Translations under genes and position numbers: made by a program
Notes under the pieces: model-generated
Database searches by the model: none
What the model was told of the DNA's origin: nothing
What the model saw: the letters and a program-made list of their open reading frames with translations, nothing else
Origin: Streptomyces sp. NBC_00690
GTDB taxonomy: Bacteria > Actinomycetota > Actinomycetes > Streptomycetales > Streptomycetaceae
Length of the DNA stretch: 64,000 nucleotides
NCBI RefSeq assembly: GCF_036226685.1
Contig: NZ_CP109009.1
Location: 6,599,501-6,663,500 of the forward strand
Reading direction: 5' to 3'
Shown: positions 5,471 to 24,079 of the stretch, piece after piece
Layout of the letters: the number at the start of each line of letters is the position of its first letter
How positions within the stretch are numbered: the first letter of the stretch is position 1

Positions 5471-5983
5471 TCAGACGCGCGCTGTGGCAGCCCCGGTTTC
5501 CGCGTGCTCCTCGGTGATCGGGCCGCAGGTCAGGAAGGTTCGGTCGTGGTAGACCAGCGGTGGCCGGCGGTTGTATTCCACGTGCTCGACGAGGCCGAGG
5601 ACGATCACATGGTCGCCGCCGTCCAGGTAGCTCTCCGCGGTGCAGACCAGCCAGCCGGCGGTGTCCGGCAGCCGGGGGACGCCTTGGTCAGAGGTCCAGG
5701 AGAGGTCCGCGAACTTGTCGGGCCCCTTGCGGGCGAACCTGGTGGCTATGGCCTGCTGGTCGCTCGCCAGCAGGTTGACTCCGAAGTGGTTCGTCGCCCG
5801 CAGCATGGCGAGCAGGTCCGAGCCGCGATCCAGTGCGATGGAGACCATCGGGGGGTCGAGGGACAGCGAGCTGAAGGCGCTGATGGTGGTGCCGTGGGCC
5901 CGGTCGTCCGCGGTGGCGGTCACGACCACGACAGGGGCCGCGACCCAGGACATCGCCGTTCGGAACTCAGCTGAGTCGATCAT
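5471..5983 (-). CDS. Flavin reductase (HpaC/DIM6-type)
   Basis: A 170-residue flavin reductase domain protein. MSWVAAPVVVVTATADD, HGTTISAFSSLSLDPPMVSIALD and HFGVNLLASDQQ are the conserved FMN-binding segments of the two-component monooxygenase reductases. It would supply reduced FMN or FAD to a separate oxygenase. The obvious partner is the LLM monooxygenase at 9158. The start ATG (5981-5983) is fixed by GGAGGAG immediately upstream, although the frame stays open to 6280. It is divergent from the GntR gene, and the shared intergenic region holds two copies of a CTGTCGACAG palindrome, so co-regulation is likely. Confidence 0.9.
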   Translation of the reverse strand: MIDSAEFRTAMSWVAAPVVVVTATADDRAHGTTISAFSSLSLDPPMVSIALDRGSDLLAMLRATNHFGVNLLASDQQAIATRFARKGPDKFADLSWTSDQGVPRLPDTAGWLVCTAESYLDGGDHVIVLGLVEHVEYNRRPPLVYHDRTFLTCGPITEEHAETGAATARV

Positions 5984-6040
5984 GGGGACTCCTCCTGCAT
6001 CAGGACGCACACCGTCGAGGGAAACAGCGGTCGCGCCGAT

Positions 6041-6054
6041 TTCTGTCGACAGAA
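6041..6054. promoter_or_regulatory. Candidate GntR operator 1
   Basis: A perfect 14-bp palindrome, TTCTGTCGACAGAA, in the divergent promoter between the flavin reductase and gntR. The GT-N2-AC core is typical of FCD-subfamily GntR sites. A second copy lies at 6130-6143. Confidence 0.6.
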
Positions 6055-6129
6055 TGAGCTGGAGGGCGGTGTTAACGCAAGGGCAATCTGTGCAAAATCT
6101 GCCGATGGTTTCCTCTTGACGGTTTGGGC

Positions 6130-6143
6130 TTCTGTCGACAGTC
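6130..6143. promoter_or_regulatory. Candidate GntR operator 2
   Basis: TTCTGTCGACAGTC repeats 12 of the 14 bases of the palindrome at 6041-6054, with the inner 10-bp palindrome CTGTCGACAG intact. It lies 89 bases from copy 1 and 34 bases before the gntR start, where it could block transcription of the gntR operon. Confidence 0.6.
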
Positions 6144-6176
6144 TTCGGTTTAGACGTTGTCGTCCAATCGATCGGG

Positions 6177-6929
6177 GTGCCGGATTCCATGGCTGACCGA
6201 GTAGTGCAGTCAGCGATCGTCGAGGCGGGGCCGGTGAGCGGCAAGGCCGCTGTGGAACTGGTCCACGATCTGCTGCGCAAGCAGATCCTGGAGGGCCAGC
6301 TCGCACCTGGAGTGGTGGTGTCGCAGGCTCAGTTGGCGCGTGATCTCGGAGTCAGCAGGTCTCCCGTGCGGGAGGCGTGCCGGCTGCTGGAAAGCGAGGG
6401 TCTGGTCGACGCCCGGCACAACCACCGGGTTCAGGTGGCCGACTTCTCGCTGGAGGACCTGGAGGAGATCTACGCCTCCCGGTTGGTCCTGGAGACACTG
6501 GCCGTCAGCCTGAAGCTGCCGAGGCTCTCACGAGACGACCTCACCGCAATGGACGAGGCGCTCGGAGGCATGCGGGTCAGCGCCGCCGAACGGGACTACG
6601 ACCGATTCACGGTCCCGCACACCCGGTTCCACACCTTCCTGGTCACCGACTTCGGCTACCGGATGTCCCGGCAGATCGGACAGTTGATCGACCACGCCCA
6701 ACGCTACCGGCGGGTCTACACCACCCAGACACCGATGGCGTGGGACGTGGTTCTGCGGCAGGACGCCCGGATTCTCGAAGCGATCCGCACCGGCGACTTC
6801 ACCGCGGCCACCGAGGAACTGGCCCGACACCTGGCCTCGACGGCACTGGCCATGATCGCCCTGATCGACCCGTCATACGACCCCCTGCTGGTGCGAGCCG
6901 CACTGAAGCAGGTGTGCAGAGATACATGA
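6177..6929 (+). CDS. GntR-family regulator, FCD (FadR) subgroup
   Basis: A repressor of about 250 residues. The N-terminal winged helix is seen as LVHDLLRKQILEGQLAPG, QLARDLGVSRSPVREACRLLESEGLV and HRVQVADFSLEDLEEIYASRL. An all-helical FCD ligand domain follows, with conserved His residues in TRFHTFLV and LARHLAST that bind a metal in this subgroup. Regulators of this type respond to organic acids or acyl ligands. The gene heads a run of four genes to 10255 and is divergent from the flavin reductase. An in-frame ATG at 6189, with GGGG about 10 bases upstream, is an equally good start. Confidence 0.88.
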   Translation: MPDSMADRVVQSAIVEAGPVSGKAAVELVHDLLRKQILEGQLAPGVVVSQAQLARDLGVSRSPVREACRLLESEGLVDARHNHRVQVADFSLEDLEEIYASRLVLETLAVSLKLPRLSRDDLTAMDEALGGMRVSAAERDYDRFTVPHTRFHTFLVTDFGYRMSRQIGQLIDHAQRYRRVYTTQTPMAWDVVLRQDARILEAIRTGDFTAATEELARHLASTALAMIALIDPSYDPLLVRAALKQVCRDT

Positions 6930-6941
6930 GAGGTGCAGCGA

Positions 6942-7373
6942 ATGGACAGCACAGTCACTTACGACCGCCCGACCGTCTCCTATGAGACGGCGAGCCGGCT
7001 GGTGGCGGCCGGGGTACGCGCCGCCGAACGACTCGGTGTGCGGGCGAGCATCGTCGTTACGGACACCGCCGGTGAACCGGTCGCGACCGCGCGTACCGAC
7101 AATGCGGGGATGCTCAGCCTGACCGTGGCCTCGGACAAGGCATGGACAGCGGCCAACGCGGGCGCCCCCACCGAAGGCGTCCACGCGTTCGTCGCCTCCG
7201 ACCCCGCCGCCCTACTTAGCATGCCGTCGGTGCCCCGGTTCACCCTCGTAGCCGGCGGCATCCCGCTGATCAGCGACGGCCGGCCGGTCGGAGCGATCGG
7301 TGTCAGCGGAGGTAGCAGCGCCCTGGACGCGCAGATCGCCCAGGAGGCGCTCACCGAGATCGGCGGGCTGTAA
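6942..7373 (+). CDS. GlcG/HbpS family heme-binding-like protein
   Basis: A 143-residue protein with VSYETASRLVAAGVRAAERLG, IVVTDTAGEPVATARTDNAG, SDKAWTAANAGAPTE and a C-terminal GGIPLISDGRPVGAIGVSGG. These are the hallmarks of the GlcG/HbpS (DUF336) family. Members bind heme or small ligands and occur often in catabolic operons without a settled role. No signal peptide is visible, so it acts in the cytosol. The ATG at 6942 is preceded by GAGAGG. An in-frame GTG at 6933 is less likely. It starts 12 bases after gntR and ends 4 bases before the hydrolase, so the three are probably translated from one message. Confidence 0.85.
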   Translation: MDSTVTYDRPTVSYETASRLVAAGVRAAERLGVRASIVVTDTAGEPVATARTDNAGMLSLTVASDKAWTAANAGAPTEGVHAFVASDPAALLSMPSVPRFTLVAGGIPLISDGRPVGAIGVSGGSSALDAQIAQEALTEIGGL

Positions 7374-7377
7374 GACC

Positions 7378-9120
7378 ATGTACGGCACAACCTGGCGAAC
7401 ATCGCCCCGCGAGTTCGGCGTCATCGTCGAACGACATGTGCGCATCCCGGTCGCGGACGGCGTCGAGTTGGAAGCGGACATCTACCGCCCCGACGCCGAG
7501 GGCACTTTCCCCGCCGTTCTGGGCATCCACGCCTACGACAGCGCGATGCAGTCCATCCCCTCCCGTCCGCAGGCCATGACCGGCCCGAATGCCTCGGCCG
7601 AGGCGGGAGATCCCTACTTCTACGCTCGCCGCGGCTATGTCCATGCGATCGTCAACGCCCGGGGTACGGGTGCGTCCGGTGGTTCGTACTCCCACTACGG
7701 TCCGCAGGACGTCGACGACGGTGTCGCGGTCATCGAGTGGCTGGCCCGGCAGGAGTGGTGCACCGGCGGTGTCGGAATGTTCGGCGTCTCCTACTTCTCC
7801 GTCGTGGCGAAGCAGATAGCCGCGCGCAACCCCCCGGCCCTCAAAGCGGTGTTCGCGCCCTTCGGTTACACCGACTTCTACCGGGACAAGTTCTACCACG
7901 GTGGAATTCTCGCCCGTACCTTCCTCACCTCATGGAGTCGGCACCTGGCCGGAGTGCGGGTGACCGGCTGGAGCAGGACCAACCTGGGCGAGGAGGAGTA
8001 CGAACGGCGACTGACCGAGCTGCGGCAGGACGCGGACATCACGGCGGTCCCCGTACTCGCCGCGGCTCTCGCCGAGCCGGAGTCCGGGCCCAACCCGCTG
8101 ATCGTCGACGTCCTGATGAACCCACTGGACGGCCCCTACTGGCACGAACGCAATCCCGACCTCGAAGCCATCGAGGTGCCGATCGTGCTGGGCGCCTGTT
8201 GGGGCATGTACGGACTGCACCTGCCCGGTGAGTTCCGTGCCTGGGACCGCGTCAGTGCACCGAAGAAGCTCATCGTGGGGCCGCCCATCTATCTGGACCG
8301 GCCGGTCTACCAGTACGCCGAGCAGTCCTTGCGCTGGTTCGACCACTGGCTCAAGGACAACGACACCGGCTATCTGGACGAACCCCCCGTCCAACTCTTC
8401 CTCCCCGGTGGCGACGGCTCCTGGCTGGACTCCGAAACCTGGCCGCTGCCCGAGACCCGCTGGCACTCGTTCTTCCTGCACGCCGACGGCCTGCTCTCCG
8501 AGCATGAATTCTGGCCGTACGAGGGAGCCACCAGCTACCAGGACAACCTCTTCAACGAACGCGGCGGCATCGCTTTCACCACACCGCCCCTCGTCGAGCG
8601 GACCGAAGTGGTCGGACCGGCCACCTTGACCCTCTACGCGGCCACCACCGACGACGAACTTCTCCTCTTCGTCAGCCTCTGGGTGGTCGACCCCGATGAC
8701 TCTCGTCGACCGCTGACCCGGGGCTGGCTGCGCGGCAGCCTCCGCGAGGTCGACGAAGCAGCCTCCACCCCCTGGCTGCGCGAACACACCTACACGGCGA
8801 GTAAACCCATCATCCCGGGCGAGGTGCACCGCTACGAAGTGACCCTCGCACCCACCGCGTACGCCTTCACCCCCGGCCAGCGCATCCAGGTACAGGTCAG
8901 TTCCTCCGATACCGAGGAGGAGGGCACCTTCCTGGACCTGATCGCACAAGGCCATCTGCTCCGCCAGGAACCCTCGTGGGTCAGTGTGCTCCATGACTCC
9001 GACCACCCCTCGGAGTTGGCCCTTCCCATCGTCAACGGCAACCGCATCGGCACCTATCTCTCCGGGGGCGTCCCAACGCCCTCTCCCGCCGGGAAAGCGT
9101 CCGGCCGGGACGGTTGGTGA
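7378..9120 (+). CDS. CocE/NonD-family (S15-type) hydrolase
   Basis: A 580-residue serine hydrolase. The N-terminal alpha/beta-hydrolase domain shows the oxyanion-region tyrosine in IHAYDSAM, the RGTGASGGSYSHYGPQD loop, and the nucleophile in MFGVSYFSV (Ser138). The C-terminal 200 residues form the jelly-roll domain of X-Pro dipeptidyl-peptidase and cocaine-esterase proteins (VVGPATLTLYAATTDDELLLFVSL). Members hydrolyse esters, amides or lactam-like bonds of small molecules. In this operon it could open an ester or lactone made by the LLM monooxygenase. There is no signal peptide. It starts 4 bases after the GlcG gene stop. Confidence 0.85.
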   Translation: MYGTTWRTSPREFGVIVERHVRIPVADGVELEADIYRPDAEGTFPAVLGIHAYDSAMQSIPSRPQAMTGPNASAEAGDPYFYARRGYVHAIVNARGTGASGGSYSHYGPQDVDDGVAVIEWLARQEWCTGGVGMFGVSYFSVVAKQIAARNPPALKAVFAPFGYTDFYRDKFYHGGILARTFLTSWSRHLAGVRVTGWSRTNLGEEEYERRLTELRQDADITAVPVLAAALAEPESGPNPLIVDVLMNPLDGPYWHERNPDLEAIEVPIVLGACWGMYGLHLPGEFRAWDRVSAPKKLIVGPPIYLDRPVYQYAEQSLRWFDHWLKDNDTGYLDEPPVQLFLPGGDGSWLDSETWPLPETRWHSFFLHADGLLSEHEFWPYEGATSYQDNLFNERGGIAFTTPPLVERTEVVGPATLTLYAATTDDELLLFVSLWVVDPDDSRRPLTRGWLRGSLREVDEAASTPWLREHTYTASKPIIPGEVHRYEVTLAPTAYAFTPGQRIQVQVSSSDTEEEGTFLDLIAQGHLLRQEPSWVSVLHDSDHPSELALPIVNGNRIGTYLSGGVPTPSPAGKASGRDGW

Positions 9121-9157
9121 CCGACGGTCCAGCAGTACCCACCCTCAAGGAGTAACC

Positions 9158-10255
9158 ATGATCACGCCGTGGCTCTTCGACATCTTCAACTACCCGTGGT
9201 CCACCGACGCCCGCAAGTTCGACACCGAGGGCTGTCAGGACCTGTACGACTGGCACTTCGACTCCTGGGTCCTCGCTGAGGAAGCCGGCTTCGAAGGCAT
9301 CTTCTTCAGCGAGCACCACTACACCCCTTACAGCGTTTCCCCCTCGCCGAACCTGCTCGTCGCCGCCCTCGCCAAGCGCACCAGCAGAATGCGGCTCGGT
9401 GTGATGGCCAACATCGTCCCGATGCACAACCCTCGCCGGCTGGCGGAGGAGTTCGCGATGCTGGACTACCTCACCAACGGTCGCCTCGAAGTCGGCCTCG
9501 GCAGAGGCATCGACGAACGGGAGTACGCCCGTGAGGGCATCCCGATGGAGGAGACCCGACCCCGCTTCGAAGAGGGCCTCAAACTCATCGAGAAGATGAC
9601 GGCCGACGCGGTCTTCACCCACTCCGGCAAGTACGCCGACTTCCAGCAGACCTCGATGTGGCCCCAGGCCCTGCCCGGCCGGTCCGCGCCGTGGATCACC
9701 GCGACCAGCCCGGCAACCGTCGCCTGGTGCGCCGAGAACGGCTACCGGATCTCCACCGCCTTCCAGCCCACCACCAAGCTGCGCCAGGCCCACGACACCT
9801 ACCGGGCCGCTGCGAAGAAGGCCGGAAACCCCTCCGGCTCCGACACGGTCATGGCACTGCGCAATGTCTTCGTCGCCGACACCGACGAGGAAGCACGCGC
9901 CATCGCCGAACCGGCGCTCAACCACATGTTCGGCCTGTTCAAGGAATCGGTCGTCTTCAGCGACCTGGACAACATCCCCGAGGGCTACTCCTCCGAGTTC
10001 TACGAGTCCTTCTTCCGCCCCTTCGCGGGATCGGGTCCTGTCGACTGGCAGACCCTCGTCGACCTCGGAATCTTCATCGTCGGCTCACCCTCCACCGTCC
10101 GTGAATCCCTGATCAAGCAGGCTCACGAACTCGGCACCTCGAACATCCTGATGTGGGGATCGTTCGGAACGCTCACCAAGGAGCAGACCCTCCACTCCTA
10201 CAACCTCCTCGGCCAGGAAGTCATCCCCGCCCTGCGCGACGAGACCGTGGCCTGA
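9158..10255 (+). CDS. LLM-class monooxygenase (luciferase-like)
   Basis: A 365-residue luciferase-like monooxygenase. EEAGFEGIFFSEHHYTPY carries the double-His active-site segment typical of bacterial luciferase-type enzymes. It is followed by MRLGVMANIVPMHNPRRLAE and NGRLEVGLGRGIDEREY. The length and these motifs resemble FMNH2-dependent type II Baeyer-Villiger and related monooxygenases that need a separate flavin reductase, here probably the one at 5471. Substrate is unknown. AAGGAG sits 7 bases before the ATG. It is the last gene of the GntR operon and is followed by a 363-base gene-free stretch with repeats. Confidence 0.85.
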   Translation: MITPWLFDIFNYPWSTDARKFDTEGCQDLYDWHFDSWVLAEEAGFEGIFFSEHHYTPYSVSPSPNLLVAALAKRTSRMRLGVMANIVPMHNPRRLAEEFAMLDYLTNGRLEVGLGRGIDEREYAREGIPMEETRPRFEEGLKLIEKMTADAVFTHSGKYADFQQTSMWPQALPGRSAPWITATSPATVAWCAENGYRISTAFQPTTKLRQAHDTYRAAAKKAGNPSGSDTVMALRNVFVADTDEEARAIAEPALNHMFGLFKESVVFSDLDNIPEGYSSEFYESFFRPFAGSGPVDWQTLVDLGIFIVGSPSTVRESLIKQAHELGTSNILMWGSFGTLTKEQTLHSYNLLGQEVIPALRDETVA

Positions 10256-10284
10256 CCACACAACGCAACACGCAACAACACGCT

Positions 10285-10324
10285 GCACAACAGCACAACA
10301 GCACAACAGCACAACAGCACAACG
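10285..10324 (+). repeat. Tandem 8-bp repeat, five copies
   Basis: Five consecutive copies of GCACAACA (the last ends in G) lie just after the LLM gene. They are part of a longer AC/AA-rich, G-poor tract from about 10256 to 10332. The rest of the gene-free interval 10256-10618 has one hairpin and no recognisable gene. Confidence 0.8.
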
Positions 10325-10555
10325 ACCCCAACGCGCCCTGAGGCCCACGGCCTCACTCGCGTGAGAAGTCCAGTCCCGAGTGTTCGCCCCCGCGCACCAC
10401 AGACTCCGCGGGGAGCACATCGAGCGCGCCTCAGCGGCTCGCCCAACGGCGCTCTTGGCCGTGGCCGACCACTCGGCATCGCAACCGATCACGTCATCGG
10501 ACGGACCATCGGACTTCCCGTTTCCTCGCCCCAGCCCGCGCAGCCATCCAGCTGA

Positions 10556-10583
10556 CCGCGCAGCCCGCTGCCTTGCTGCGCGG
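10556..10583 (+). terminator. GC-rich hairpin upstream of FAH gene
   Basis: CCGCGCAG (10556-10563) pairs perfectly with CTGCGCGG (10576-10583) across a 12-base loop. It lies 36 bases before the FAH start, so it could be the terminator of the preceding operon or part of the leader of the next. No T-run follows. Confidence 0.4.
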
Positions 10584-10618
10584 GCCGGGGCCCGTACTCC
10601 CTCTTTGAGGAGCCACTC

Positions 10619-11461
10619 ATGCGCATCGCCAACCTCTCCGGTCGGCTCGTCCTGATCGCCTACGGCCGGGCGGTCGACGTCGAGAAGGCCAGCGACGGCC
10701 TCTTCCCCTCCGAGCCGCAAGCCATCTACGAACGGTGGGAGGACTTCCGCGCGTGGGCCGCCACCGCGGATCTGCCCCCTGGCGAACCTTTCCAGCCCAC
10801 CGACCTCGGCTCGCCGGCGCCCGCCCCCCGGCAGACCCTGGCCATCGGTCTGAACTACCGCAGCCACGCCGCCGAGGCAGGCTTCGCCGCGCCGGAGGGC
10901 CTGCCGCCGGTCTTCACCAAGTACGCCACCAGCATCACCGGCCCGGTCACCACGGTCGCCCTCCCACCCGGAGGCCACACCGACTGGGAGGTCGAACTCG
11001 TCGTCGTCATCGGCTCCCGCGCCGAAGACGTCTCACCGGCAGCGGCCTGGGGCCATGTCGCGGGACTGACGGTCGGCCAGGACATCTCCGAACGCATCAC
11101 CCAGATGACCGGCCAGGTGCCGCAGTTCAGCCTCGGCAAGTCCTACCCCGGCTTCGGCCCCGTCGGACCCTGGCTCGTCACCCCCGACGAGTTCGACGAC
11201 CCCGACGACCTCCAACTGCGCTGCACGATCAACGGTGAAGAAGTCCAGCACGGATACACCCGCGACATGCTCCTGTCCGTGTCCGACCTGATCGCCACCC
11301 TCTCCGCGATCCTGCCCCTGGAACCCGGCGACATCATCTTCACCGGCACACCCGCGGGCGTCGGCCTCGGCCGCAACCCCCAGCGCTGGCTCGCCCCAGG
11401 AGACGAACTCGTCAGCACCATCGACGGCATCGGTGAACTCCGCCAGACCTTCACCAGCTAG
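10619..11461 (+). CDS. Fumarylacetoacetate hydrolase (FAH) family protein 1
   Basis: A 280-residue FAH-fold enzyme. The core is LAIGLNYRSHAAE, PPVFTKYATSITGP, DWEVELVVVIGS (acidic metal ligands), GLTVGQDISER and the C-terminal GDIIFTGTPAGVG. The family includes hydrolases, isomerases and decarboxylases acting on ring-cleavage products of aromatic pathways. It lies 42 bases before an extradiol-type dioxygenase, so it probably acts on that enzyme's product. GAGGAG precedes the ATG. It shares the family with the protein at 16023 but the two are clearly divergent in sequence, suggesting different substrates. Confidence 0.88.
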   Translation: MRIANLSGRLVLIAYGRAVDVEKASDGLFPSEPQAIYERWEDFRAWAATADLPPGEPFQPTDLGSPAPAPRQTLAIGLNYRSHAAEAGFAAPEGLPPVFTKYATSITGPVTTVALPPGGHTDWEVELVVVIGSRAEDVSPAAAWGHVAGLTVGQDISERITQMTGQVPQFSLGKSYPGFGPVGPWLVTPDEFDDPDDLQLRCTINGEEVQHGYTRDMLLSVSDLIATLSAILPLEPGDIIFTGTPAGVGLGRNPQRWLAPGDELVSTIDGIGELRQTFTS

Positions 11462-11503
11462 CCCTCTTCGCCTCCCTCACAACGCACTGCCCAGGAGCTC
11501 CCT

Positions 11504-12430
11504 ATGGCACTGCACCGCCTGACCTCCGTCACCATGGGGGTCCCCAACGTCGCCGATACTGCCGCCTACTACACCGAGTTCGGCCTCACCCCCGACACCG
11601 ACGGTTGGTTCACCACCCGCGACGCCGGCCGCCAGCTCCGCATCGTGCCCGCCGTGACCCGCCGTCTCGTCGAGATCCGCATCGGAGCCGACACCCCCGA
11701 CGACCTCGCCGTCGCCGCCGCACGGCTGCGGCGCATGGACATCGCCTGTCAGCTCTCCACCAGCACCCTGATCGCGTACGACAACGCCACCGGCGTACGA
11801 GCCGTGCTGGAAGTGACACCACGCCTGCACCAGGCACCCGTACCGCCCACCCCGTACAACGGCCCAGGCCGCACCGAACGCACCGGGGCCCGCGCCCCCG
11901 GACTCGTACACACCGACAGGGTCCGGCCCCGCAAACTCGGCCACGCTGTCATCGGCACCACCGACCTCGAAACCACCACCAACTTCTTCCATGACGGTCT
12001 CGGCTTCAAAGCCTCCGACTACATCAAGGGCCACGGCGCCTTCCTCCGGTGCTCCTCCGACCACCACAACATCCTGGTCCTCGCCGCCCCGGTCAGCTAT
12101 CTCCACCACACCTCCTGGCAGGTCGACGACATCGACGACATCGGGCGGGGCGCGGCCACCATGCTCGAAGGCCACCCCGAGCGGCATATCTGGGGTCTGG
12201 GACGGCATCACGCGGGCTCCAACTTCTTCTGGTACCTCAAGGACCCGGCGGGCAACTTCAGCGAGTACTACTCGGACATGGACTCCATCGTCGAGGACGA
12301 GCTGTGGACCCCCGAAGTCCTCGAAGGCGCCAAAGGGCTCTTCAACTGGGGGCCCCCACCCCCACCCTCCTTCCTCGCACCCGACGACCTTGCCGCCCTC
12401 ATGACCGGCGCCCACAGCCCGAGCAACTGA
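11504..12430 (+). CDS. Two-domain extradiol ring-cleavage dioxygenase (VOC)
   Basis: A 308-residue type I extradiol dioxygenase. The N-terminal VOC module (1-125) is catalytically empty. The C-terminal one carries the predicted Fe(II) ligands His147 (KLGHAVIG), His201 or His202 (SYLHHTSWQV) and Glu254 (NFSEYYSD). The adjacent GRHHAGSNFFWYLKDP matches the signature of 2,3-dihydroxybiphenyl/homoprotocatechuate dioxygenases. It should cleave a catechol-type ring in the meta position using O2. AGGAG precedes the ATG. It is paired with the FAH gene immediately upstream, and the two look like one operon. Confidence 0.88.
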   Translation: MALHRLTSVTMGVPNVADTAAYYTEFGLTPDTDGWFTTRDAGRQLRIVPAVTRRLVEIRIGADTPDDLAVAAARLRRMDIACQLSTSTLIAYDNATGVRAVLEVTPRLHQAPVPPTPYNGPGRTERTGARAPGLVHTDRVRPRKLGHAVIGTTDLETTTNFFHDGLGFKASDYIKGHGAFLRCSSDHHNILVLAAPVSYLHHTSWQVDDIDDIGRGAATMLEGHPERHIWGLGRHHAGSNFFWYLKDPAGNFSEYYSDMDSIVEDELWTPEVLEGAKGLFNWGPPPPPSFLAPDDLAALMTGAHSPSN

Positions 12431-12485
12431 GGGAACCGCGCGCACCCGCCGCATCGACAGCTCCAAGCGACATGGCCTTGGGGCG

Positions 12486-15947: not shown

Positions 15948-15968
15948 TTAACAGTAAATGGCTGTTAA
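15948..15968. promoter_or_regulatory. Candidate LysR operator dyad
   Basis: TTAACAG (15948-15954) and CTGTTAA (15962-15968) form a perfect 7-bp inverted repeat with a 7-base spacer. They contain a T-N11-A type LysR box and lie in the 81-base divergent promoter between lysR (start 15941) and the FAH gene (start 16023). Confidence 0.65.
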
Positions 15969-16958: not shown

Positions 16959-17149
16959 ACCTGACCGTCGACCGCGCACTCTGCCAGGTCACGGGGCTGT
17001 GCGCGGGGCTTGCCCCCGACGCCCTGGAGATGGACGAGAAGGGTGACCTCGTCATCCTCGCCGAGAAGCCGACGGCCGACCTGCTCGTCGAGATCCGCCA
17101 AGCCGTGCGGAGCTGCCCGGTGCAGGCCCTGTCACTCACCGAGGGCTGA
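16955..17149 (+). CDS. [3Fe-4S] ferredoxin
   Basis: A 64-residue ferredoxin of the Streptomyces P450-partner type. Cysteines at 10, 16 and 54 (C-x5-C ... CP) are the three cluster ligands, and the fourth position is absent, as expected for a [3Fe-4S] cluster. It passes single electrons from the reductase encoded next to it to an oxygenase. Its ATG overlaps the FAH stop (ATGA). No P450 or Rieske oxygenase is in this operon; the nearest P450 is at 25584. Confidence 0.92.
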   Translation: MNLTVDRALCQVTGLCAGLAPDALEMDEKGDLVILAEKPTADLLVEIRQAVRSCPVQALSLTEG

Positions 17150-17152
17150 ACC

Positions 17153-18364
17153 ATGGTCCGGGATCGCGTTCGCCATGTCACGATCGTCGGAGCCTCCGCC
17201 GCCGGGCTTGCCGCAGCACACGGACTACGACAGCACGGCTTCGACGGGCCGGTCACCGTCTTCGGCGATGAACCGGAGGCCGCCTACCAACGACCTGCCC
17301 TGTCCAAACGCTTCCTGACCTCCGCCGACCTCGCCGCGGACAGCATCCGCATGCACACCGGCCTGGAGGACGTCCGCCTTGAACTGGGCGTACGGGCAAC
17401 CGGCCTCGACCTCGACGCACGGCGGCTACACCTGCGCGCCAGCGATGGAGACCGTACTCACGTCCACAGGGTCGACGCACTGGTGATCGCCACCGGGGCC
17501 GCCGCCCGCAGGCTACCGATACGGACTCCACCCGGTGTACATGTGCTGCGTACGCTCGCCGATGCCGCCGCCTTGCGCGCCGACCTGGTGGGACTTCCAC
17601 GGGTAGCCATCGTGGGGGCCGGATTCGTGGGCAGCGAGGTCGCGTCCTCCTGCCGCGCGCTCGGCCTCGATGTCACCCTGATCGAGGCCGGCCCCGCCCC
17701 CATGGCGCGGGTGCTGGGCCCCGGAGTGGGCACGATGCTGGCCGCCCTGCACCGTGATCACGGCACGCGGCTGCGGCTGGGTGCGGGGGTCGCCGGCTTC
17801 ACCGGCCGAGACCGGGTCACCGGAGTACAGCTGGCGAGCGGCGAGGTCGTGCCGGCCGATGTCGTGGTGGTCGGTGTGGGTGCCCGGCCCGCAACCGACT
17901 GGCTGGAGAACAGCGGGCTGCCACTGGACGACGGCGTGGTGTGCGGAGCGGACCTCTCGGTCGCCGATCGCATCGTCGCCGCCGGGGACGTGGCCCGCTG
18001 GCCGCACCACCGCGACGGCGCCCTGGTCCGGGTCGAGCACTGGGACAACGCCCTGCGCCAGGCGAACACCGCAGCCGCCACCCTGCTCGCCCTCGACGAT
18101 CGACCCGCAACGGTGTTCAGCGACACCACGATGTTCTGGTCCGACCAGTACGACTGCAAGCTCCAACTGGTCGGTCACCCCTATCCCGACGATCTGGTGA
18201 CCGTGGTCGAGGGCGACTTGGCGCAGCGCCGCGGAGTCGTCGTATACAGCCGAGCTGGCCAGATGACGGCCGCGCTCCTGGTCAGCAGCCCCCACCGGCT
18301 ACGCGACTACCGGCGGGCCGTCGCGTCGGGGGACCCCGTCCCCCTGCCCGCTGCCACACCCTGA
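17153..18364 (+). CDS. NAD(P)H-ferredoxin reductase, FAD-dependent
   Basis: A 403-residue pyridine nucleotide-disulfide-type oxidoreductase. It has an N-terminal FAD motif in VTIVGASAAGLAAAHGL, the YQRPALSK loop typical of oxygenase-coupled reductases, a second NAD-binding motif VAIVGAGFVGSEVA, and ADRIVAAGDVA near the C-terminal FAD site. It should reduce the ferredoxin encoded 4 bases upstream and so power a P450 or ring hydroxylase. Close relatives are putidaredoxin-reductase and phenylpropionate-dioxygenase reductase proteins. It is likely co-transcribed with FAH, ferredoxin and the VOC gene that follows. Confidence 0.9.
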   Translation: MVRDRVRHVTIVGASAAGLAAAHGLRQHGFDGPVTVFGDEPEAAYQRPALSKRFLTSADLAADSIRMHTGLEDVRLELGVRATGLDLDARRLHLRASDGDRTHVHRVDALVIATGAAARRLPIRTPPGVHVLRTLADAAALRADLVGLPRVAIVGAGFVGSEVASSCRALGLDVTLIEAGPAPMARVLGPGVGTMLAALHRDHGTRLRLGAGVAGFTGRDRVTGVQLASGEVVPADVVVVGVGARPATDWLENSGLPLDDGVVCGADLSVADRIVAAGDVARWPHHRDGALVRVEHWDNALRQANTAAATLLALDDRPATVFSDTTMFWSDQYDCKLQLVGHPYPDDLVTVVEGDLAQRRGVVVYSRAGQMTAALLVSSPHRLRDYRRAVASGDPVPLPAATP

Positions 18365-18429: not shown

Positions 18430-18969
18430 ATGCCCGGTATCACCCATCGGTCCACCAAGACGCCCCTGCTGAAGACGAAGTTCCTGTCGCACGGCACGCT
18501 TGAGTGCCGGGACATCTCCGCCTCCCGCCGCTTCTACGAAGAGGTGCTCGGCCTCGAAGTGGTGCAGCAGGCGCCCATGGCGTTGCTCGTCCGCCTGGGC
18601 AGTGACCACTGCTACGCAGCCGTCGAGACCCCCGGCGAAGGGGAGATGCCGCTGATGAACCACAACGGCCTCGATGTGTCCAGCGACGAGGAAGTGCGGC
18701 AGGCCCACGAAATGCTGCACGAGGTCAAGGACGAGTACGGGATCAGGCAGATCACCAAGCCCGTACGCCAACACGGCACCTATGCCTTCTTCCTCCAGGA
18801 CCTGGACGGCAACTGGTGGGAGATCTGCCACCTGCCACAAGGCGGCTACGCCTTCCGCTATGAGAACTCCGAGGTGGACCTGACCGGTCGGGACGACCTG
18901 TCGCCCGAAGAGATTCGCTCCCGCTACACACGGCCCGAGGACTACCTGTCTCCTTCGACGGCCGTCTAG
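18430..18969 (+). CDS. Single-domain VOC dioxygenase-like protein
   Basis: A 179-residue vicinal-oxygen-chelate protein. The predicted metal triad is His21 (FLSHGTLEC), His78 (LMNHNGLDV) and Glu131 (DGNWWEICH), the arrangement of extradiol dioxygenases and glyoxalases. Its small size and single module differ from the two-domain enzyme at 11504. It could be a second ring-cleaving dioxygenase or a non-oxidative VOC enzyme. AAGGAG is just upstream of the ATG. The last 35 residues (RDDLSPEEIRSRYTRPEDY) are hydrophilic and not part of the VOC fold. Confidence 0.8.
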   Translation: MPGITHRSTKTPLLKTKFLSHGTLECRDISASRRFYEEVLGLEVVQQAPMALLVRLGSDHCYAAVETPGEGEMPLMNHNGLDVSSDEEVRQAHEMLHEVKDEYGIRQITKPVRQHGTYAFFLQDLDGNWWEICHLPQGGYAFRYENSEVDLTGRDDLSPEEIRSRYTRPEDYLSPSTAV

Positions 18970-19092: not shown

Positions 19093-20067
19093 ATGAAGCT
19101 GATCGGCCTCGAAGAACACTTCGTCACCCCCGCACTCGTCGGCCATGGCACGTCGACCTCCTCCATAGCCCAGCCCAAAGCCTGGGCCGAAGCCTCACGT
19201 CGACTGCTCGACCTGACGGAGGAGCGCTTGGAGGCGATGGACACGGCAGGGCTCGCCATGCAGGTGCTGTCGCTGAACTCCCCCGGCATCCAGGCCGAGA
19301 CCGACCCGGCCGCCGCCGTACGGCAGGCCGCCACCGTCAATGACCACCTCGCCGGAGTCATCTCCGAACACCCCGACCGATTCTCCGGATTCGCCGCACT
19401 GCCCCTCCAGGACCCCAAGAAGGCCGCCGACGAACTGGAGCGCGCGGTCACCCAACTCGGCTTGCGCGGTGCCCTGGTCAACGCTCACACCAACGGGACC
19501 TACCTGGACGACCCCACCCTGCGGGTGGTGTGGGAGCGCGCCGAGGCCCTCGACGTACCGCTCTACCTCCACCCGGCCAACGGGGTAGACCTGGCCCATG
19601 TCTTCTCCGGCCACCCTGAGCTGGTGGGACCGATGTGGAGTTGGGGCATTGACACCGCCACCCACGTACTGCGTCTGATCTTCGGCGGTGTGTTCGACGA
19701 CTTCCCCAAGGCGAAACTGCTCCTGGGCCATATGGGGGAGGGCCTGCCGTTCACCCTCTGGCGGATGGACTCCCGGTGGAACTTCCACGCCCACCACGGC
19801 ATCGAGCTCAAGCGCGGCAAGCCGTCGGAGTACGTCAGGGAGAACCTCTACATCACCACCAGCGGAGTGTGTTCCGCTCCACCACTTCTCGCCGCGATGC
19901 TGTCCATCGGCGCCGATCACATCCTCTTCGGTACGGACTACCCGTTCGAAGAGATCGACACCGCCACTCAGTTCCTGCGCGACGCGCCGATCAGCGAAGC
20001 CGACCGGGCGAAGATCGGTCACCGCAACGCCCAACGCCTCCTCGGCCTTGCACCTGCCACGGAATGA
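19093..20067 (+). CDS. Amidohydrolase-type decarboxylase (gamma-resorcylate decarboxylase-like)
   Basis: A 324-residue ACMSD/amidohydrolase-2 family protein. Expected metal ligands are Glu7 and His9 (GLEEHF), His160 (LYLHPANG) and Asp282 (LFGTDYPFE), with His213 in LLGHMGEGLPF. This spacing and length match gamma-resorcylate (2,6-dihydroxybenzoate) decarboxylases, which use Zn or Mn to release CO2 non-oxidatively and form resorcinol. The neighbouring maleylacetate reductase and hydroxyquinol dioxygenase support a resorcinol-type pathway. A related substrate (2,4-dihydroxy- or other hydroxybenzoate) cannot be excluded. A GTAGGAG site precedes the ATG. Confidence 0.85.
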   Translation: MKLIGLEEHFVTPALVGHGTSTSSIAQPKAWAEASRRLLDLTEERLEAMDTAGLAMQVLSLNSPGIQAETDPAAAVRQAATVNDHLAGVISEHPDRFSGFAALPLQDPKKAADELERAVTQLGLRGALVNAHTNGTYLDDPTLRVVWERAEALDVPLYLHPANGVDLAHVFSGHPELVGPMWSWGIDTATHVLRLIFGGVFDDFPKAKLLLGHMGEGLPFTLWRMDSRWNFHAHHGIELKRGKPSEYVRENLYITTSGVCSAPPLLAAMLSIGADHILFGTDYPFEEIDTATQFLRDAPISEADRAKIGHRNAQRLLGLAPATE

Positions 20068-20107
20068 TGGCGCCACGGAGATCCATGACACAGCAGGAAG
20101 TTGGACC

Positions 20108-21205
20108 ATGAAGACCAACCCGCCGGCCGCTGCGGTCGTGTACGAGTCGTGGGGACAGCGGGTTCTCTTCGGCTCCGGCACCGCCCGGCACGACGTAGCG
20201 GCTGAGATCGCCAGGCTCGGCGCGCACCGCGTCCTGCTCATCGCTGCTGAGGGCAAGCGGGCGGTGGCCGAGGAGATCTGCCAGGACATCCCGGTCGCGG
20301 CCGTCTTCGGCGACGTCAGACCGCATGTCCCGGCCGACGTGGCCGCCGCGGTGAGCGCTGCTGCCCAGGAGCACGATGCGGACCTGTTGCTCAGCGTCGG
20401 GGGAGGGTCGACGACCGGTGCCGCCAAGGCGGCGGCGCTCACGACGGGACTGCCGATCCTCGCGGTCCCCACAACCTACGCCGGGTCCGAGGCGACACCC
20501 GTCTGGGGCATCACCGAGGACGGCCGCAAGCGCACCGGGATCGACCCGAAGGTCCTGCCGCGTGTGGTCGTCTACGACGCGTCGCTCATGCTCACCCTCC
20601 CCACCCGTCTGTCGGTGACATCAGGGCTCAACGCGCTGGCGCATTGTGTCGATTCCTGGTGGGCTCCACAGCACAATCCGATGAGCTCCGCACTCGCCGC
20701 AGAGGGCGTGCGCGCACTGGCGGCCTCCCTCCCACGCATCGCGGCCGACGGCCAGGACATTGAGGCCCGGCGGGACATCCTCTTCGGTACCTATCTCGGG
20801 GCCGTCGCGTTCGCCGGAGCAGGCTCGGGGCTACACCACAAGATCTGTCATGTTCTCGGCGGTGCCTATGACCTGGAGCATTCCGCCACCCACGCGGTGA
20901 TCCTCCCGCACGTCGCAGGATTCAATCTGCCCGCCGCACCTGACGCCGCTCGCCGTCTCGGAGCGGCTCTCGGGGACCCGGAGGCCCCCTTCAGCGCCCT
21001 GCTCGACCTCTACGCACGGCTCGACGCGCCCCGTTCGCTCCAGGCACTGGGGCTCTCGGATAAGGACGTCGAGCACGCCGCCGACCTGGTGATGGGTCAC
21101 ATTCCACCGTCCAACCCACGTTCCGTCACCCGTGACGACTTGCTCGCTCTCCTCGGGCGCGCGTGCCGCGGCGAAGCAGGGCTGCTGGTACCGCTCCCCG
21201 GCTGA
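20108..21205 (+). CDS. Maleylacetate reductase
   Basis: A 365-residue iron-containing alcohol dehydrogenase family protein. The NAD(P) site is SVGGGSTTGAAKA (96-108), then VPTTYAGSEATPVWGIT. The metal-site region GLNALAHCVDSWW and GLHHKICHVLGG are as in maleylacetate reductases. It reduces maleylacetate to 3-oxoadipate, the step after hydroxyquinol cleavage. The start ATG (20108) has AGGAAG upstream; the frame is open to 19688 but overlaps the decarboxylase. It sits between the decarboxylase and hydroxyquinol dioxygenase genes, matching the gene content of known gamma-resorcylate clusters. Confidence 0.9.
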   Translation: MKTNPPAAAVVYESWGQRVLFGSGTARHDVAAEIARLGAHRVLLIAAEGKRAVAEEICQDIPVAAVFGDVRPHVPADVAAAVSAAAQEHDADLLLSVGGGSTTGAAKAAALTTGLPILAVPTTYAGSEATPVWGITEDGRKRTGIDPKVLPRVVVYDASLMLTLPTRLSVTSGLNALAHCVDSWWAPQHNPMSSALAAEGVRALAASLPRIAADGQDIEARRDILFGTYLGAVAFAGAGSGLHHKICHVLGGAYDLEHSATHAVILPHVAGFNLPAAPDAARRLGAALGDPEAPFSALLDLYARLDAPRSLQALGLSDKDVEHAADLVMGHIPPSNPRSVTRDDLLALLGRACRGEAGLLVPLPG

Positions 21206-21229: not shown

Positions 21230-22162
21230 ATGGCACACGAACACACGGCAGAGGGCACAGACCCTGACCCCGGCACGCTCGACGCTCACCGGGAGCAGGT
21301 CGTGACCGACGCCGTAGTGGCCAGTTTCACCACGGCCAAGGATGAGCGACTGCGTGAGGTGATGCAGGCGCTTGTGCGACACACCCACGCGTTCATCAGG
21401 GAGGTTCGGCTCTCTGAGGACGAGTGGAACCAGGCGATCGCGTTCCTGACGGCGGTCGGGCACACGACGACCGACACGCGTCAGGAGTTCGTACTCCTGT
21501 CGGACGTGCTCGGCATCTCCATGCTCACCGTCGCGGTGAACGACGCAACAGCTGCACCAGGCGTCATCAAGGCCACCGAGGCGACCGTCTTCGGCCCCTT
21601 TTTCGTCGAGAACTCACCGAGGATCGAGCCCGGTGGGGACATCGCCCACGGCGCCACCGGCGAACCATCCTTGATCAGCGGAACCGTGTCCGACACAGCC
21701 GGAAACTTGATCGCCGGCGCCAGGATCGAGGTCTGGGAGGCCGACTCGGACGGCATGTACGACGTCCAGTACGACAACGATCGGCTCACCGGTCGAGCCC
21801 ACCTGTACAGCGACGCCGATGGTCGCTACCAGTTCTGGGGGCTCACTCCCACGCCGTACCCGATTCCCGACGACGGACCCGTCGGCCAACTGCTGGATGC
21901 CGCCGGACGTTCACCCATGCGCGCATCCCATCTGCACTTCATGGTGACCGCACCCGGCTTCCGCCGACTGGTCACCCATATCTTCGTCGCCGGCGATGCG
22001 TATCTCGGCACGGACTCCGTCTTCGGTGTGAAGGAGTCACTCATCTACGACTTCGAACGCCACGAACCCGGTACACCCACCCCGGACGGCCGTGTGATTC
22101 CCGGAACCTGGACATCAACGGTCTTCGACATCGTCCTGTCGGCCGAAGAGCACTCACCCTGA
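21230..22162 (+). CDS. Hydroxyquinol 1,2-dioxygenase (intradiol)
   Basis: A 310-residue intradiol dioxygenase. The non-heme Fe(III) ligands are Tyr177 (SDGMYDVQY), Tyr210 ([12 protein letters not shown]), His234 and His236 ([13 protein letters not shown]). The N-terminal helical dimerisation domain (about 20-110) and the IPDDGPVG motif separate it from protocatechuate enzymes and point to hydroxyquinol rather than catechol. It cleaves 1,2,4-trihydroxybenzene to maleylacetate, the substrate of the reductase encoded just upstream. GAAGGGA precedes the ATG. Two hairpins follow the stop. Confidence 0.92.
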
Positions 22163-22215
22163 CGTTCACGGGCCACTCCTGACCTCGCCGACCCAGCGAG
22201 GCGCGCCGGCCGTAC

Positions 22216-22241
22216 CCCCATGGCCCGCTCGCACCATGGGG
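22216..22241. terminator. Hairpin after hydroxyquinol dioxygenase
   Basis: CCCCATGG (22216-22223) pairs with CCATGGGG (22234-22241) around a 10-base loop, 53 bases after the stop of the dioxygenase. No T-run follows, as is common in Streptomyces. Confidence 0.5.
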
Positions 22242-22313
22242 CGTCGCGGATCTACGGGAACCCGCTGATCACTCCGGTGTGGCTGGCGAGCGCCCCACCG
22301 AAACGATGGTGAT

Positions 22314-22345
22314 GGCGGGTTGCCCCGACACGTCCGCAACCCGCC
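22314..22345. terminator. Strong hairpin between dioxygenase and MFS gene
   Basis: GGCGGGTTGC (22314-22323) and GCAACCCGCC (22336-22345) form a perfect 10-bp stem with a 12-base loop. With the hairpin at 22216 it probably ends the LysR operon, so the MFS gene likely has its own promoter in 22346-22801. Confidence 0.6.
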
Positions 22346-22582
22346 AACACCAACTCGGCACACCCTCCGTGGGCCCGAGCAACCGTCAAGCAGCTAGATC
22401 ATCATCGGCCATGTGCCCCAGCGGGCAACGGCCGATTGCGCCACCCCTCTGCTGCCGCCCCGACGAGCGAAACCTCAGATAGCGCGCCGCTCGCCCGGAT
22501 TCCCGCCTCGACCCACTCCTCCGGCCTCGCACCGTCGACGCAGACAATCAGGCCCCGCGGGCGCGGGATTCGGCGACCCGGA

Positions 22583-22801
22583 TGCCCGGAGTCGTACGAC
22601 GCGTTCGCCGCCCAAGTGCTGGGCCGCATCCCCCGATGGCCCGAGTTCGACCTGCCCTCAGCCCCTGGGGCGGATCGATCGTGCTCGGTCGAACCCTCGG
22701 CGCTGCGTGCCGAGATCAGTCAGGGCCTACTCGCCCTCGTCCTCGAACACCTGCAATCGCCGCGCGCTTCCCCCGCGCGCCTCTCCGTGAGGAGTACCAA
22801 C
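22583..22801 (+). pseudogene. Possible regulator remnant fused in frame to the MFS gene
   Basis: This 73-codon stretch is open and in frame with the MFS gene and has the high third-position GC of a real gene, unlike the sequence just before it. It reads YDAFAAQVLGRIPRWPEF, a gap, then ALRAEISQGLLALVLEHLQS. That pattern resembles the N-terminal sensory domain of PucR/CdaR-type regulators (a VL-x2-IP-x-aromatic motif followed by amphipathic helices). No start codon with a ribosome site is seen and the rest of such a regulator is absent. It may be a decayed fragment or chance. Confidence 0.3.
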
Positions 22802-24079
22802 ATGAGCTCCATCTCCAGCGGACCCAGACCCGGGGTCCGCCCCGGCCCTGCGGTCACCCTCGGGCTCGTCATCCTGTGCATCGAGGGATACGACCTCTTC
22901 ATCCTGGGCGCGGTCGGCCCCTCCCTCCTGGCCCACCCCGACTGGGACGTCACCAAGTCGACCCTGGGACTGCTGGGCAGCCTCACCGCACTGGGGATGC
23001 CCCTGGGGTCCATCGTCGCCGGCTGGGCCGGCGACCTCTACGGCCGTCGGCTCCCTATGGTCCTCAGCCTGGCCTGGCTGTCCCTGAGCATGCTCCTGAG
23101 CGCCATAGCCGATGACCTCACACTCTTCGCCGCGACACGATTCCTCACCGGCATGGGCGTCGGAGCCCTGATACCCCTCGTCACCGCCTACGTCAGCGAA
23201 GCAGCCACACCCAGTCGCCATTCCCTCCAAGTAGGCGTGGCCACCACTGGACTGGCCATCGGCGGCATCATCACCGCGGTCGTCGGACGCTCCCTGCTGC
23301 CGGAATGGGACTTCCGCACCCTCTTCCTGTTCGGCGTCATCCCCCTGGTGCTCATCCCCGTGGTGTGGCGGATGGTCCCCGGATCGATCGACGATCAGAC
23401 CTCACACGCGACCAGCACAGCCGAGCCGGAGCCGGCCCCTGAGCGGACCACCTCCGCGAACCGGCTCGGCGAACTGCTGACGCCTCGGTACCGCCGGCTG
23501 ACTCTCCTGGCCTGGGCCTCGACGTTCGTCGGGCTCGTCATCGTCTACGGCGCCAGCACCTGGCTGCCGGCCCTGATGGTCGAGGCGGGATACGACCTCC
23601 GCTCGTCGCTGGAGTTCGCCATCGCCTTCAACGCCGGTGCCGTCATCGGCACCATAGGCGCCGCCCTGATAGCCGACCGTGGCTTCCTTAAGCTCGCCAC
23701 CATGGCGAGCTTCCTCCTGGCCGGCGTAGCCATGATCGTCCTCAGCACACCGCAGGCCCGGCCCCTGCTGCTCCTCGCCTCCGCCGTCGCCGGTTTCGGC
23801 GCACTCGGTTCCCAGACCCTCATCAACATCTTCGTCGCCCGCTCCCACCCGGCACACCTGCGCGGCACAGCACTGGGCTTCAGCCTCGGCGTAGGCCGTG
23901 TCGGCGCCATCGTCGGCCCGAGCTATCTGGCCGCCGTCACCGTCCTGATCAGCTCCCCGAAGGCCGGCTTCTACGCCTTCGTCGTCCCGGCGATCCTGGG
24001 CGCGGCACTCATCGGACTACTGCACTCGGCCCCTCGTGAAGCCACCAAACCGCAGCCCGGGGCCGACATCACTCCTTGA
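22802..24079 (+). CDS. MFS transporter, aromatic acid:H+ symporter (AAHS) type
   Basis: A 425-residue integral membrane protein with about 12 hydrophobic segments. IEGYDLFILGAVGPSLL in TM1 and GWAGDLYGRRLPMV in the TM2-3 loop are the conserved AAHS motifs; the loop holds the acidic and arginine residues of MFS motif A. The central cytoplasmic loop (SIDDQTSHATSTAEPEP) splits the two halves. It likely imports the aromatic acid degraded by the cluster, for example a hydroxybenzoate. GAGGAG upstream fixes the ATG at 22802. It is the last gene of the catabolic region and is followed by a strong terminator. Confidence 0.88.
   Translation: MSSISSGPRPGVRPGPAVTLGLVILCIEGYDLFILGAVGPSLLAHPDWDVTKSTLGLLGSLTALGMPLGSIVAGWAGDLYGRRLPMVLSLAWLSLSMLLSAIADDLTLFAATRFLTGMGVGALIPLVTAYVSEAATPSRHSLQVGVATTGLAIGGIITAVVGRSLLPEWDFRTLFLFGVIPLVLIPVVWRMVPGSIDDQTSHATSTAEPEPAPERTTSANRLGELLTPRYRRLTLLAWASTFVGLVIVYGASTWLPALMVEAGYDLRSSLEFAIAFNAGAVIGTIGAALIADRGFLKLATMASFLLAGVAMIVLSTPQARPLLLLASAVAGFGALGSQTLINIFVARSHPAHLRGTALGFSLGVGRVGAIVGPSYLAAVTVLISSPKAGFYAFVVPAILGAALIGLLHSAPREATKPQPGADITP

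Follow-up and report, generated by a model that had tools for sequence, protein, structure and literature searches.

A strain-specific mosaic of aromatic-catabolic gene modules in Streptomyces sp. NBC_00690

The 64,000-nucleotide stretch of Streptomyces sp. NBC_00690 analysed here (contig NZ_CP109009.1, positions 6,599,501 to 6,663,500; hereafter the window, numbered from its first letter) carries, between positions 5471 and 24079, about eighteen genes that look as if they serve the breakdown of aromatic compounds, in cassettes under two different switches. The region is a real, intact and strain-specific mosaic of known catabolic modules, in which the combination is new and the kind is not. 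When gene order is compared across genomes, synteny shows three separable modules, A, B and C, of which module A comprises a flavin reductase gene divergent from a GntR-HbpS-CocE-LLM run, together with a fumarylacetoacetate-hydrolase family gene (FAH1) and an extradiol dioxygenase gene. This is ordinary catabolic biology in an unusual combination, one cassette of which couples a small protein of ring-cleavage type to electron-transfer proteins of its own.

The genome comprises 9.17 Mb in two contigs, and several of the genes have their nearest named relatives in Streptomyces. Genes were assigned by Pfam and NCBIfam profile searches and by sequence matches to solved structures; gene starts are the authors' choices, and the reading frames of all cluster genes are open. 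A first-pass annotation, made from the letters alone, had described a composite aromatic-catabolic cluster. Every enzyme family that it named was recovered (the ferredoxin through its match to solved ferredoxins), and both the composite and the aromatic-catabolic character are borne out. The HbpS-like gene at 6942-7373 and a cytochrome P450 gene at 25485-26822, just outside the cluster, are additions to that inventory.

Module A and the Candidate GntR Sites

The features from 5471 to 14778, which include module A, are the following.

5471 to 5983, reverse strand: flavin reductase, HsaB/HpaC-like (PF01613, E 7.5e-39)
6041 to 6054, no strand: perfect 14-bp palindrome TTCTGTCGACAGAA, candidate GntR operator, with a 12-bp direct copy at 6130-6141
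6130 to 6143, no strand: second copy of the TTCTGTCGACAGAA palindrome, with 2 mismatches
6189 to 6929, forward strand: GntR regulator, FCD subfamily (PF00392, PF07729)
6942 to 7373, forward strand: HbpS/GlcG-like protein (PF03928, E 4.6e-30)
7378 to 9120, forward strand: CocE/NonD family hydrolase (PF02129, PF08530; TIGR00976 at 264.6 bits, above cut-off)
9158 to 10255, forward strand: luciferase-like (LLM) flavin monooxygenase (PF00296, E 4e-53)
10619 to 11461, forward strand: FAH1, fumarylacetoacetate-hydrolase family, HpcE-like (PF01557; best solved match 6v77, 314 bits)
11504 to 12430, forward strand: two-domain extradiol (VOC) dioxygenase (PF00903)
12885 to 13646, forward strand: SDR oxidoreductase (PF13561; of the 25 NCBIfam models listed, none reaches its cut-off)
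13864 to 14778, forward strand: HSL-family esterase (PF07859; LipP1 at 306.1 bits, 350 required)

The module was compared with 63 actinobacterial loci bearing a homologue of the dioxygenase (Streptomyces, Amycolatopsis, Gordonia, Nocardia, Arthrobacter and other genera), which were retrieved by exact matches to six peptides from a single protein and taken with up to 10 kb of flank, several of them ending at contig edges. In the tblastn tables, matches were kept at E <= 1e-8 over half of the query, and a single tested representative gave each hydroxylase or GntR cluster its name. The pairing of FAH1 with the extradiol dioxygenase is old. An FAH1 homologue is present in 58 of the 63 loci, and in 56 it immediately precedes the dioxygenase, separated from it by no more than 115 bp; the 42-bp gap in the window conforms to this. 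Residues H147, H202 and E254 of the dioxygenase, which we take to be the iron-ligand positions of the class, are invariant in 172 of 172 aligned rows.

The surroundings of the pair are only partly those of its relatives. A hydroxylase cluster, either FAD_binding_3 or HsaA-like, accompanies the dioxygenase at a distance of up to 3.5 kb in 30 of the 63 loci, and a GntR cluster, whose tested representative is GntR plus FCD, does so in 26; the HsaA-like type is accompanied by a flavin reductase in 8 loci, and the reductase of the window is 43-53% identical to reductases within the same distance in 8 of the 63. The window keeps the flavin reductase and the FCD-type GntR, and HbpS-CocE-LLM stands where the hydroxylase would be. 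An FAD_binding_3 or HsaA-type hydroxylase near FAH1 and the dioxygenase, a common and not a strict feature of the loci, is absent here. Homologues of the HbpS-like protein, of the HSL esterase and of VOC2 (a module B protein described below) were found in none of the 63 loci, CocE once (31% identity) and LLM three times (23-26%). The best CocE matches lie in other contexts, at 44% in another genome (G146) and at 52% on Agrobacterium plasmid pAt1. In the LLM protein, E52-H53-H54 is invariant over 33 aligned rows. Streptomyces sp. NPDC007084 has an LLM homologue of 84% identity; no Streptomyces uncialis LLM appears among the 120 relatives listed, a listing clustered at 90% identity, so that the absence is no proof.

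A second dioxygenase copy (67% identical) lies at 7.37 Mb of the same genome with FAH1-like (61%) and FAD-hydroxylase genes, and the conventional module is therefore present separately in this genome. Two further neighbourhoods may be recorded. On a plasmid of Streptomyces clavuligerus, a 72% dioxygenase homologue lies without FAH1 amid genes for sugar-nucleotide, P450 and methyltransferase proteins, a setting that could point to a biosynthetic use. The CocE homologue on pAt1 (from walnut) lies near an annotated HpaB-type hydroxylase, a flavin reductase, a VOC protein, a 2-hydroxychromene-2-carboxylate isomerase and a dihydrodipicolinate-synthase-family protein, where a naphthoquinone-type pathway is possible.

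By their position between the divergent flavin reductase and GntR genes, the two palindromes are natural candidate targets of GntR. With up to three mismatches allowed, the palindrome has 5 matches in the window, where 1.35 are expected, a number reached in 1 of 100 shuffles; the best two are those at the flavin reductase/GntR pair, and the other three (22134, 30202 and 48996) carry 3 mismatches each. The first-pass annotation had read a MarR site as a hint of a third regulatory input. This was not supported: no MarR gene is among the genes scanned in 5471-24079, the conspicuous palindromes (6041 and 6130) sit beside GntR, and the only MarR gene seen, at 471-1010, was dropped as a third regulator, no link having been found and a SpoIIE-type gene and about 4.5 kb intervening. 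To the left of the cluster, this MarR-family gene is followed by a second luciferase-like monooxygenase gene (1259-2278, reverse strand), and a large PAS-GAF-SpoIIE-HATPase gene (2897-5353) lies between that pair and the cluster.

Module B and the LysR Dyad

Module B consists of a LysR gene divergent from an operon with internal gaps of -4, 3 and 65 bp.

15003 to 15941, reverse strand: LysR regulator of module B (PF00126, PF03466; its 67% homologue is divergent from the matching operon in genome G575)
15949 to 15967, no strand: candidate LysR operator TAACAG-N7-CTGTTA, a conserved dyad
16023 to 16958, forward strand: FAH2, fumarylacetoacetate-hydrolase family (PF01557, E 3.6e-62)
16955 to 17149, forward strand: small 3Fe-4S/4Fe-4S-type ferredoxin (matches to solved ferredoxins; overlaps FAH2 by 4 bp)
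17153 to 18364, forward strand: ferredoxin reductase (PF07992, PF14759; best NCBIfam model HcaD, 244.8 of 450 bits)
18430 to 18969, forward strand: VOC2, single-domain VOC protein (PF00903)

One other genome of the genus, G575, has the module but neither A nor C; there LysR, FAH2, ferredoxin, reductase and VOC2 are colinear on a 118-kb contig at 67, 73, 51, 74 and 76% identity. A transposase-type gene follows VOC2 there, and the 24 kb past VOC2 hold no homologue of the decarboxylase, maleylacetate reductase or hydroxyquinol dioxygenase of module C. The exact TAACAG-N7-CTGTTA dyad was found only in the window and in locus L116, namely in the LysR-FAH2 gap of the window and of G575, that is, two sites in 1.945 Mb searched (overlapping loci counted) against about 0.009 expected from base composition. 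Since the next outward base pair is T..A in the window and G..C in G575, the dyad itself has been kept. An 8-base-spacer pattern, TTAACAG-N8-CTGTTAA, was tried and rejected: it has no site with up to 2 mismatches in 1.88 Mb and a single 3-mismatch match in the window, the true spacer being 7. With the 7-base spacer and 3 mismatches allowed, two matches are found, the second at 24907 between the MFS and P450 genes; 82 of 100 shuffles have at least two, such matches are not rarer than in shuffles, and only exact, conserved sites were therefore used.

VOC2 is rare: a sample of 392 genomes of the genus yields 3 carriers at E <= 1e-30, and one of 394 genomes of the class yields 2 at E <= 1e-20, this genome included in both counts. 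Over two overlapping genus draws of 392 and 376 genomes the only other carriers are G575 and G823 (77-78% identity). In G823, only part of LysR, the ferredoxin and VOC2 are kept, FAH2 being missing between LysR and the ferredoxin. A more distant VOC2 (49%) occurs in G432, the only carrier among 35 genomes of its family, with a ferredoxin reductase, two FAH, a two-domain dioxygenase-type, an aldolase and an aldehyde dehydrogenase gene; judged by this gene content, its surroundings are a meta-cleavage setting.

Module C and the Question of the Hydroxylase

Module C, decarboxylase-maleylacetate reductase-hydroxyquinol dioxygenase-transporter, stands behind module B, and the gene gaps from FAH2 to the hydroxyquinol dioxygenase run from -4 to 123 bp.

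19093 to 20067, forward strand: ortho-hydroxybenzoate (resorcylate-type) decarboxylase, amidohydrolase-2 (best solved matches are gamma-resorcylate decarboxylases)
20108 to 21205, forward strand: maleylacetate reductase (PF00465, PF25137, on the enclosing open reading frame 19688-21205)
21230 to 22162, forward strand: hydroxyquinol 1,2-dioxygenase (PF00775, PF04444; 1tmx at 397.4 bits, 249.4 for the next)
22307 to 22352, no strand: terminator-like inverted repeat past the dioxygenase gene (17-nt arms, 94% complementary, 12-nt loop)
22802 to 24079, forward strand: MFS transporter, nearest model AAHS (PF07690; TIGR00895 at 243.7 bits, below the cut-off of 418.55)

The decarboxylase matches the gamma-resorcylate decarboxylases 3s4t (275.7 bits) and 2dvt (270.9 bits) better than the 5-carboxyvanillate decarboxylase 4icm (220.1 bits). 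Its EEH, YLHP and TDxPFE blocks align with the former enzymes, and its HTN...DDP and TTSGV blocks are shared with the latter. The next-best decarboxylase among 121 genomes of the family is 53% identical, and one on an Agrobacterium plasmid 66%; the closest plasmid-borne relatives of the hydroxyquinol dioxygenase, unlike those of the decarboxylase, come from Rhodococcus and other actinobacteria (60-67%). The maleylacetate reductase and hydroxyquinol dioxygenase genes are adjacent, 24 bp apart, and homologues of the two adjoin in four loci (L048, L122, L126 and L127).

A resorcinol hydroxylase was not found here: the genome has 35 FAD_binding_3 matches, all of them outside the window, and the cluster genes scanned gave no HsaA/HpaB-type match. 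An FAD hydroxylase gene does lie at 767.9-768.9 kb of the genome, beside a second hydroxyquinol dioxygenase and maleylacetate reductase (0.768-0.772 Mb). Hydroxylation may come from elsewhere, for example from that locus; otherwise the acid may already be trihydroxylated, or the LLM enzyme or the P450 could fill the role. The surroundings of this second pair (762000-781999, locus L122) look like a conventional resorcinol-type locus.

Chromosomal Setting

The conserved chromosome begins to the right of the cluster with TrmA (26945-28273), which all 10 genomes searched carry at 81-88% identity. Over about 18 kb downstream of TrmA, the seven of these 10 that were read gave no match to CocE, LLM, FAH1, the dioxygenase, HSL, LysR or FAH2, nor to the ferredoxin, its reductase, VOC2, the decarboxylase, the hydroxyquinol genes, the MFS transporter or the P450; what did appear were SDR matches (two of seven), one weak GntR match and partial matches to the SpoIIE-type gene left of the cluster (two of seven). 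The absence of the cluster beside TrmA in all seven indicates that the cluster and the P450 gene are strain-specific at this place. Long gaps of 363, 454, 639 and 1405 bp carry no assigned gene. Perfect short tandem repeats lie in two such gaps, at 10285-10323 (8-bp unit, 4.9 copies) and at 24985-25027 (6-bp unit, 7.2 copies).

Proposed Function and Alternatives

The region is probably a strain-specific catabolic island of three separately travelling modules under two independent regulators. The gene families, their order and spacing, the conserved LysR dyad, the catalytic-type residues of the dioxygenase and the separate occurrence of the modules carry this reading; we infer the substrates, the action of the regulators on the candidate sites and a single transcript of modules B and C in the following scheme. 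In module A, an inducer would free both copies of TTCTGTCGACAGAA in the flavin reductase-GntR intergenic region. The flavin reductase and LLM would act as a two-component oxygenase, whose ester or amide product CocE (perhaps HSL too) would hydrolyse; a catechol-type ring would be opened and hydrolysed by the extradiol dioxygenase together with FAH1. In module B, LysR at TAACAG-N7-CTGTTA would switch on FAH2-ferredoxin-reductase-VOC2 for a second round of oxygenation and hydrolysis. Module C apparently shares this promoter: its decarboxylase would strip CO2 from an ortho-hydroxybenzoate, the intradiol dioxygenase would open hydroxyquinol, the maleylacetate reductase would lead to 3-oxoadipate, and the MFS transporter would import the acid.

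The first-pass annotation had instead proposed one pathway for one larger molecule, in which the GntR side opens or cleaves the substrate; the resorcylate-type acid set free would be degraded by way of hydroxyquinol on the LysR side. We consider this rather unlikely, and it stands with the modular island as one of two live options. All genes lie within 18.6 kb and mostly on one strand, as a single pathway would have them. The two halves have different regulators with different candidate operators, and neither operator has a further site with up to 2 mismatches in the window beyond its own genes; the usual types of ring hydroxylase are also missing from the cluster. The halves lie apart in most of the 63 loci and in G575. 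They also lie apart in the family sample, which holds 13 other genomes, partly drafts, with a dioxygenase homologue of at least 54% identity: seven of these also carry a decarboxylase homologue (E <= 1e-40, 36-51%), and in each of the seven it is separated from the dioxygenase homologue by 89 kb or more or sits on a different contig. Modules A, B and C were found together nowhere else in the loci examined.

That the halves always occur separately, however, is true only in part, and several observations weigh against the modular island. In Pseudarthrobacter sp. H3Y2-7 (L048, one of the 63 loci), FAH1 and the dioxygenase are directly followed by maleylacetate reductase (53%) and hydroxyquinol dioxygenase (62%); the hydroxylase of that locus (7327-8937) is HpaB-type by a reading of its N-terminus, not by profile. 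The same meeting recurs in part, and more weakly, in L075, where the pair has MFS (37%), SDR (34%) and decarboxylase (39%) homologues near it. In L041, some 4 kb lie between the dioxygenase and a homologue of maleylacetate reductase (56%). Given these loci, A-like and C-like genes may be functionally linked. A CocE-family gene, at only 31% identity, lies beside LysR and flanks the operon in G575. Streptomyces uncialis carries homologues of the dioxygenase (85%) and of VOC2 (95%), each on a contig of 8,813,451 bases, and modules A and B may be linked there. Finally, the targets of both GntR and LysR are assigned from position.

We hold it improbable that the cluster is a random accumulation, at a hot spot of the chromosome, of catabolic genes that are unrelated or decaying and do not function together: the long gaps, the simple repeats at 10285 and 24985, the strain-specific location and the truncated relative in G823 would suit it, but all frames are open, catalytic-type residues are invariant among relatives, and the LysR dyad is kept despite changes on both arms.

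In the modular reading, the region is an example of an aromatic-degradation island assembled from common (FAH-extradiol), rare (LysR-FAH-ferredoxin-VOC2) and near-rhizobial (decarboxylase) cassettes, and it provides two concrete candidate operator sites.

The VOC2-Ferredoxin Association

The association of VOC2 with a ferredoxin is the most interesting lead of the region. Residues H21, H60, H78, H115 and E131 of VOC2, among which H21, H78 and E131 would be the metal triad of a single-domain extradiol dioxygenase, are invariant in 42 aligned rows. A predicted model (predicted local distance difference test score, pLDDT, 88.9) has a VOC fold and matches VOC structures, and the fold search with it gives the superfamily only, with L-DOPA dioxygenase and homogentisate dioxygenase among many binding and resistance proteins. 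The fold and sequence neighbours are mixed, covering extradiol dioxygenases as well as FosA, glyoxalase-like and drug-binding proteins. Among the 120 listed of 470 VOC2 relatives found, six are VOC-ferredoxin fusions (P0177, P0191, P0198, P0203, P0210 and P0233), all metagenomic and with a C-terminal ferredoxin of the same small type, suggesting a single-domain VOC enzyme served by a ferredoxin.

Two readings of this electron chain compete. In the first, VOC2, ferredoxin and reductase would form a dedicated three-part unit in which the 3Fe-4S-type ferredoxin feeds electrons to a single-domain VOC iron enzyme, a proposal we hold to be doubtful. The ferredoxin would serve either re-reduction after inactivation, as XylT re-reduces inactivated catechol 2,3-dioxygenase, or the supply of a reductant-dependent oxygenase. 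The ferredoxin gene stays with VOC2 in the G823 remnant and the reductase gene does so in G575 and G432. In the stretch of G432 that was examined, however, nothing convincingly resembles this ferredoxin, and the 20 kb of G823 hold no reductase homologue; both weigh against a strict three-part unit. In the literature listings (titles and abstract openings), no description of a single-domain VOC enzyme paired with its own ferredoxin chain was found; if functional, the pairing would add an electron-fed branch to the VOC superfamily.

The second reading, somewhat better placed and itself tentative, concerns the electron chain alone; it is compatible with the modules and a rival to the VOC2 unit. 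The ferredoxin and reductase would serve the following gene as the missing hydroxylase, VOC2 being accessory.

25485 to 26822, forward strand: cytochrome P450 beyond the cluster, which the ferredoxin pair may serve (PF00067; signature FGHGIHYCLG)

The ferredoxin (16955-17149) has no NCBIfam match and resembles P450 partners; it matches solved ferredoxins and, in a P450 51 chain, residues 474-532. Downstream of VOC2, the P450 gene begins after 6.5 kb in the window, and in G575 a P450 signature follows at about 10 kb. Against such a client stand the 1.4 kb between the MFS and P450 genes, the six VOC2 relatives fused to ferredoxin instead, and the absence of a P450 signature from the VOC2-bearing stretches of G823 and G432 (L118 and L121), of which the G823 contig starts 3.7 kb before VOC2.

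Comparison with Known Systems

The closest known counterparts of module C are the gamma-resorcylate clusters gra of Rhizobium and tsd of Rhodococcus jostii RHA1, which share with it hydroxyquinol 1,2-dioxygenase, maleylacetate reductase, an MFS transporter and, to judge by the best solved matches, a resorcylate-type decarboxylase. The window differs in lacking a resorcinol hydroxylase, in having LysR instead of their IclR regulator, in the FAH2-ferredoxin-reductase-VOC2 genes that precede, and in a decarboxylase that shares blocks with 5-carboxyvanillate decarboxylase.

The flavonoid and isoflavonoid fde/ifc clusters have in common with the window a VOC (glyoxalase-family) ring-cleavage dioxygenase, according to the available text of PMC11069340 and PMC8552027. 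Pathways of this type start with an FAD monooxygenase, FdeE/IfcA (available text of PMC11069340). Membership among them fails because no such FAD monooxygenase family member is present in the window, and the flavonoid substrate considered in the first-pass annotation is left unsupported. The 4-hydroxypyridine kpi cluster was tried as a match and rejected, its ring-cleavage enzyme being an amidohydrolase-family protein in the available text of PMC7356986. No literature title or abstract opening found describes the present gene combination.

Baeyer-Villiger systems of an LLM enzyme with a flavin reductase, such as diketocamphane monooxygenase, resemble module A in that an LLM gene lies near a flavin reductase and ester hydrolases, and it is this proximity that suggests an LLM-flavin reductase pairing in the window. 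The LLM protein scores higher against the alkanal monooxygenase alpha chain (103.8 bits) than against diketocamphane monooxygenase (70.1 bits). In another system of this kind, that of the pdc LLM of Caenibius, no nearby flavin reductase could be assigned to the LLM (available text of PMC12239570).

Agrobacterium leguminum plasmid pTiCFBP4996 (L127) carries maleylacetate reductase and hydroxyquinol dioxygenase with the 66% decarboxylase, likewise without an annotated hydroxylase among them. It differs in two SDR genes around the decarboxylase (maleylacetate reductase-hydroxyquinol dioxygenase-SDR-decarboxylase-SDR), in its ABC importers and in having no VOC2, FAH2 or LysR match. The 63 actinobacterial FAH-extradiol loci, in turn, resemble module A in FAH1 upstream of the dioxygenase and in a GntR and an HsaB-like flavin reductase nearby, and the hydroxylase that 30 of them carry is replaced here by HbpS-CocE-LLM.

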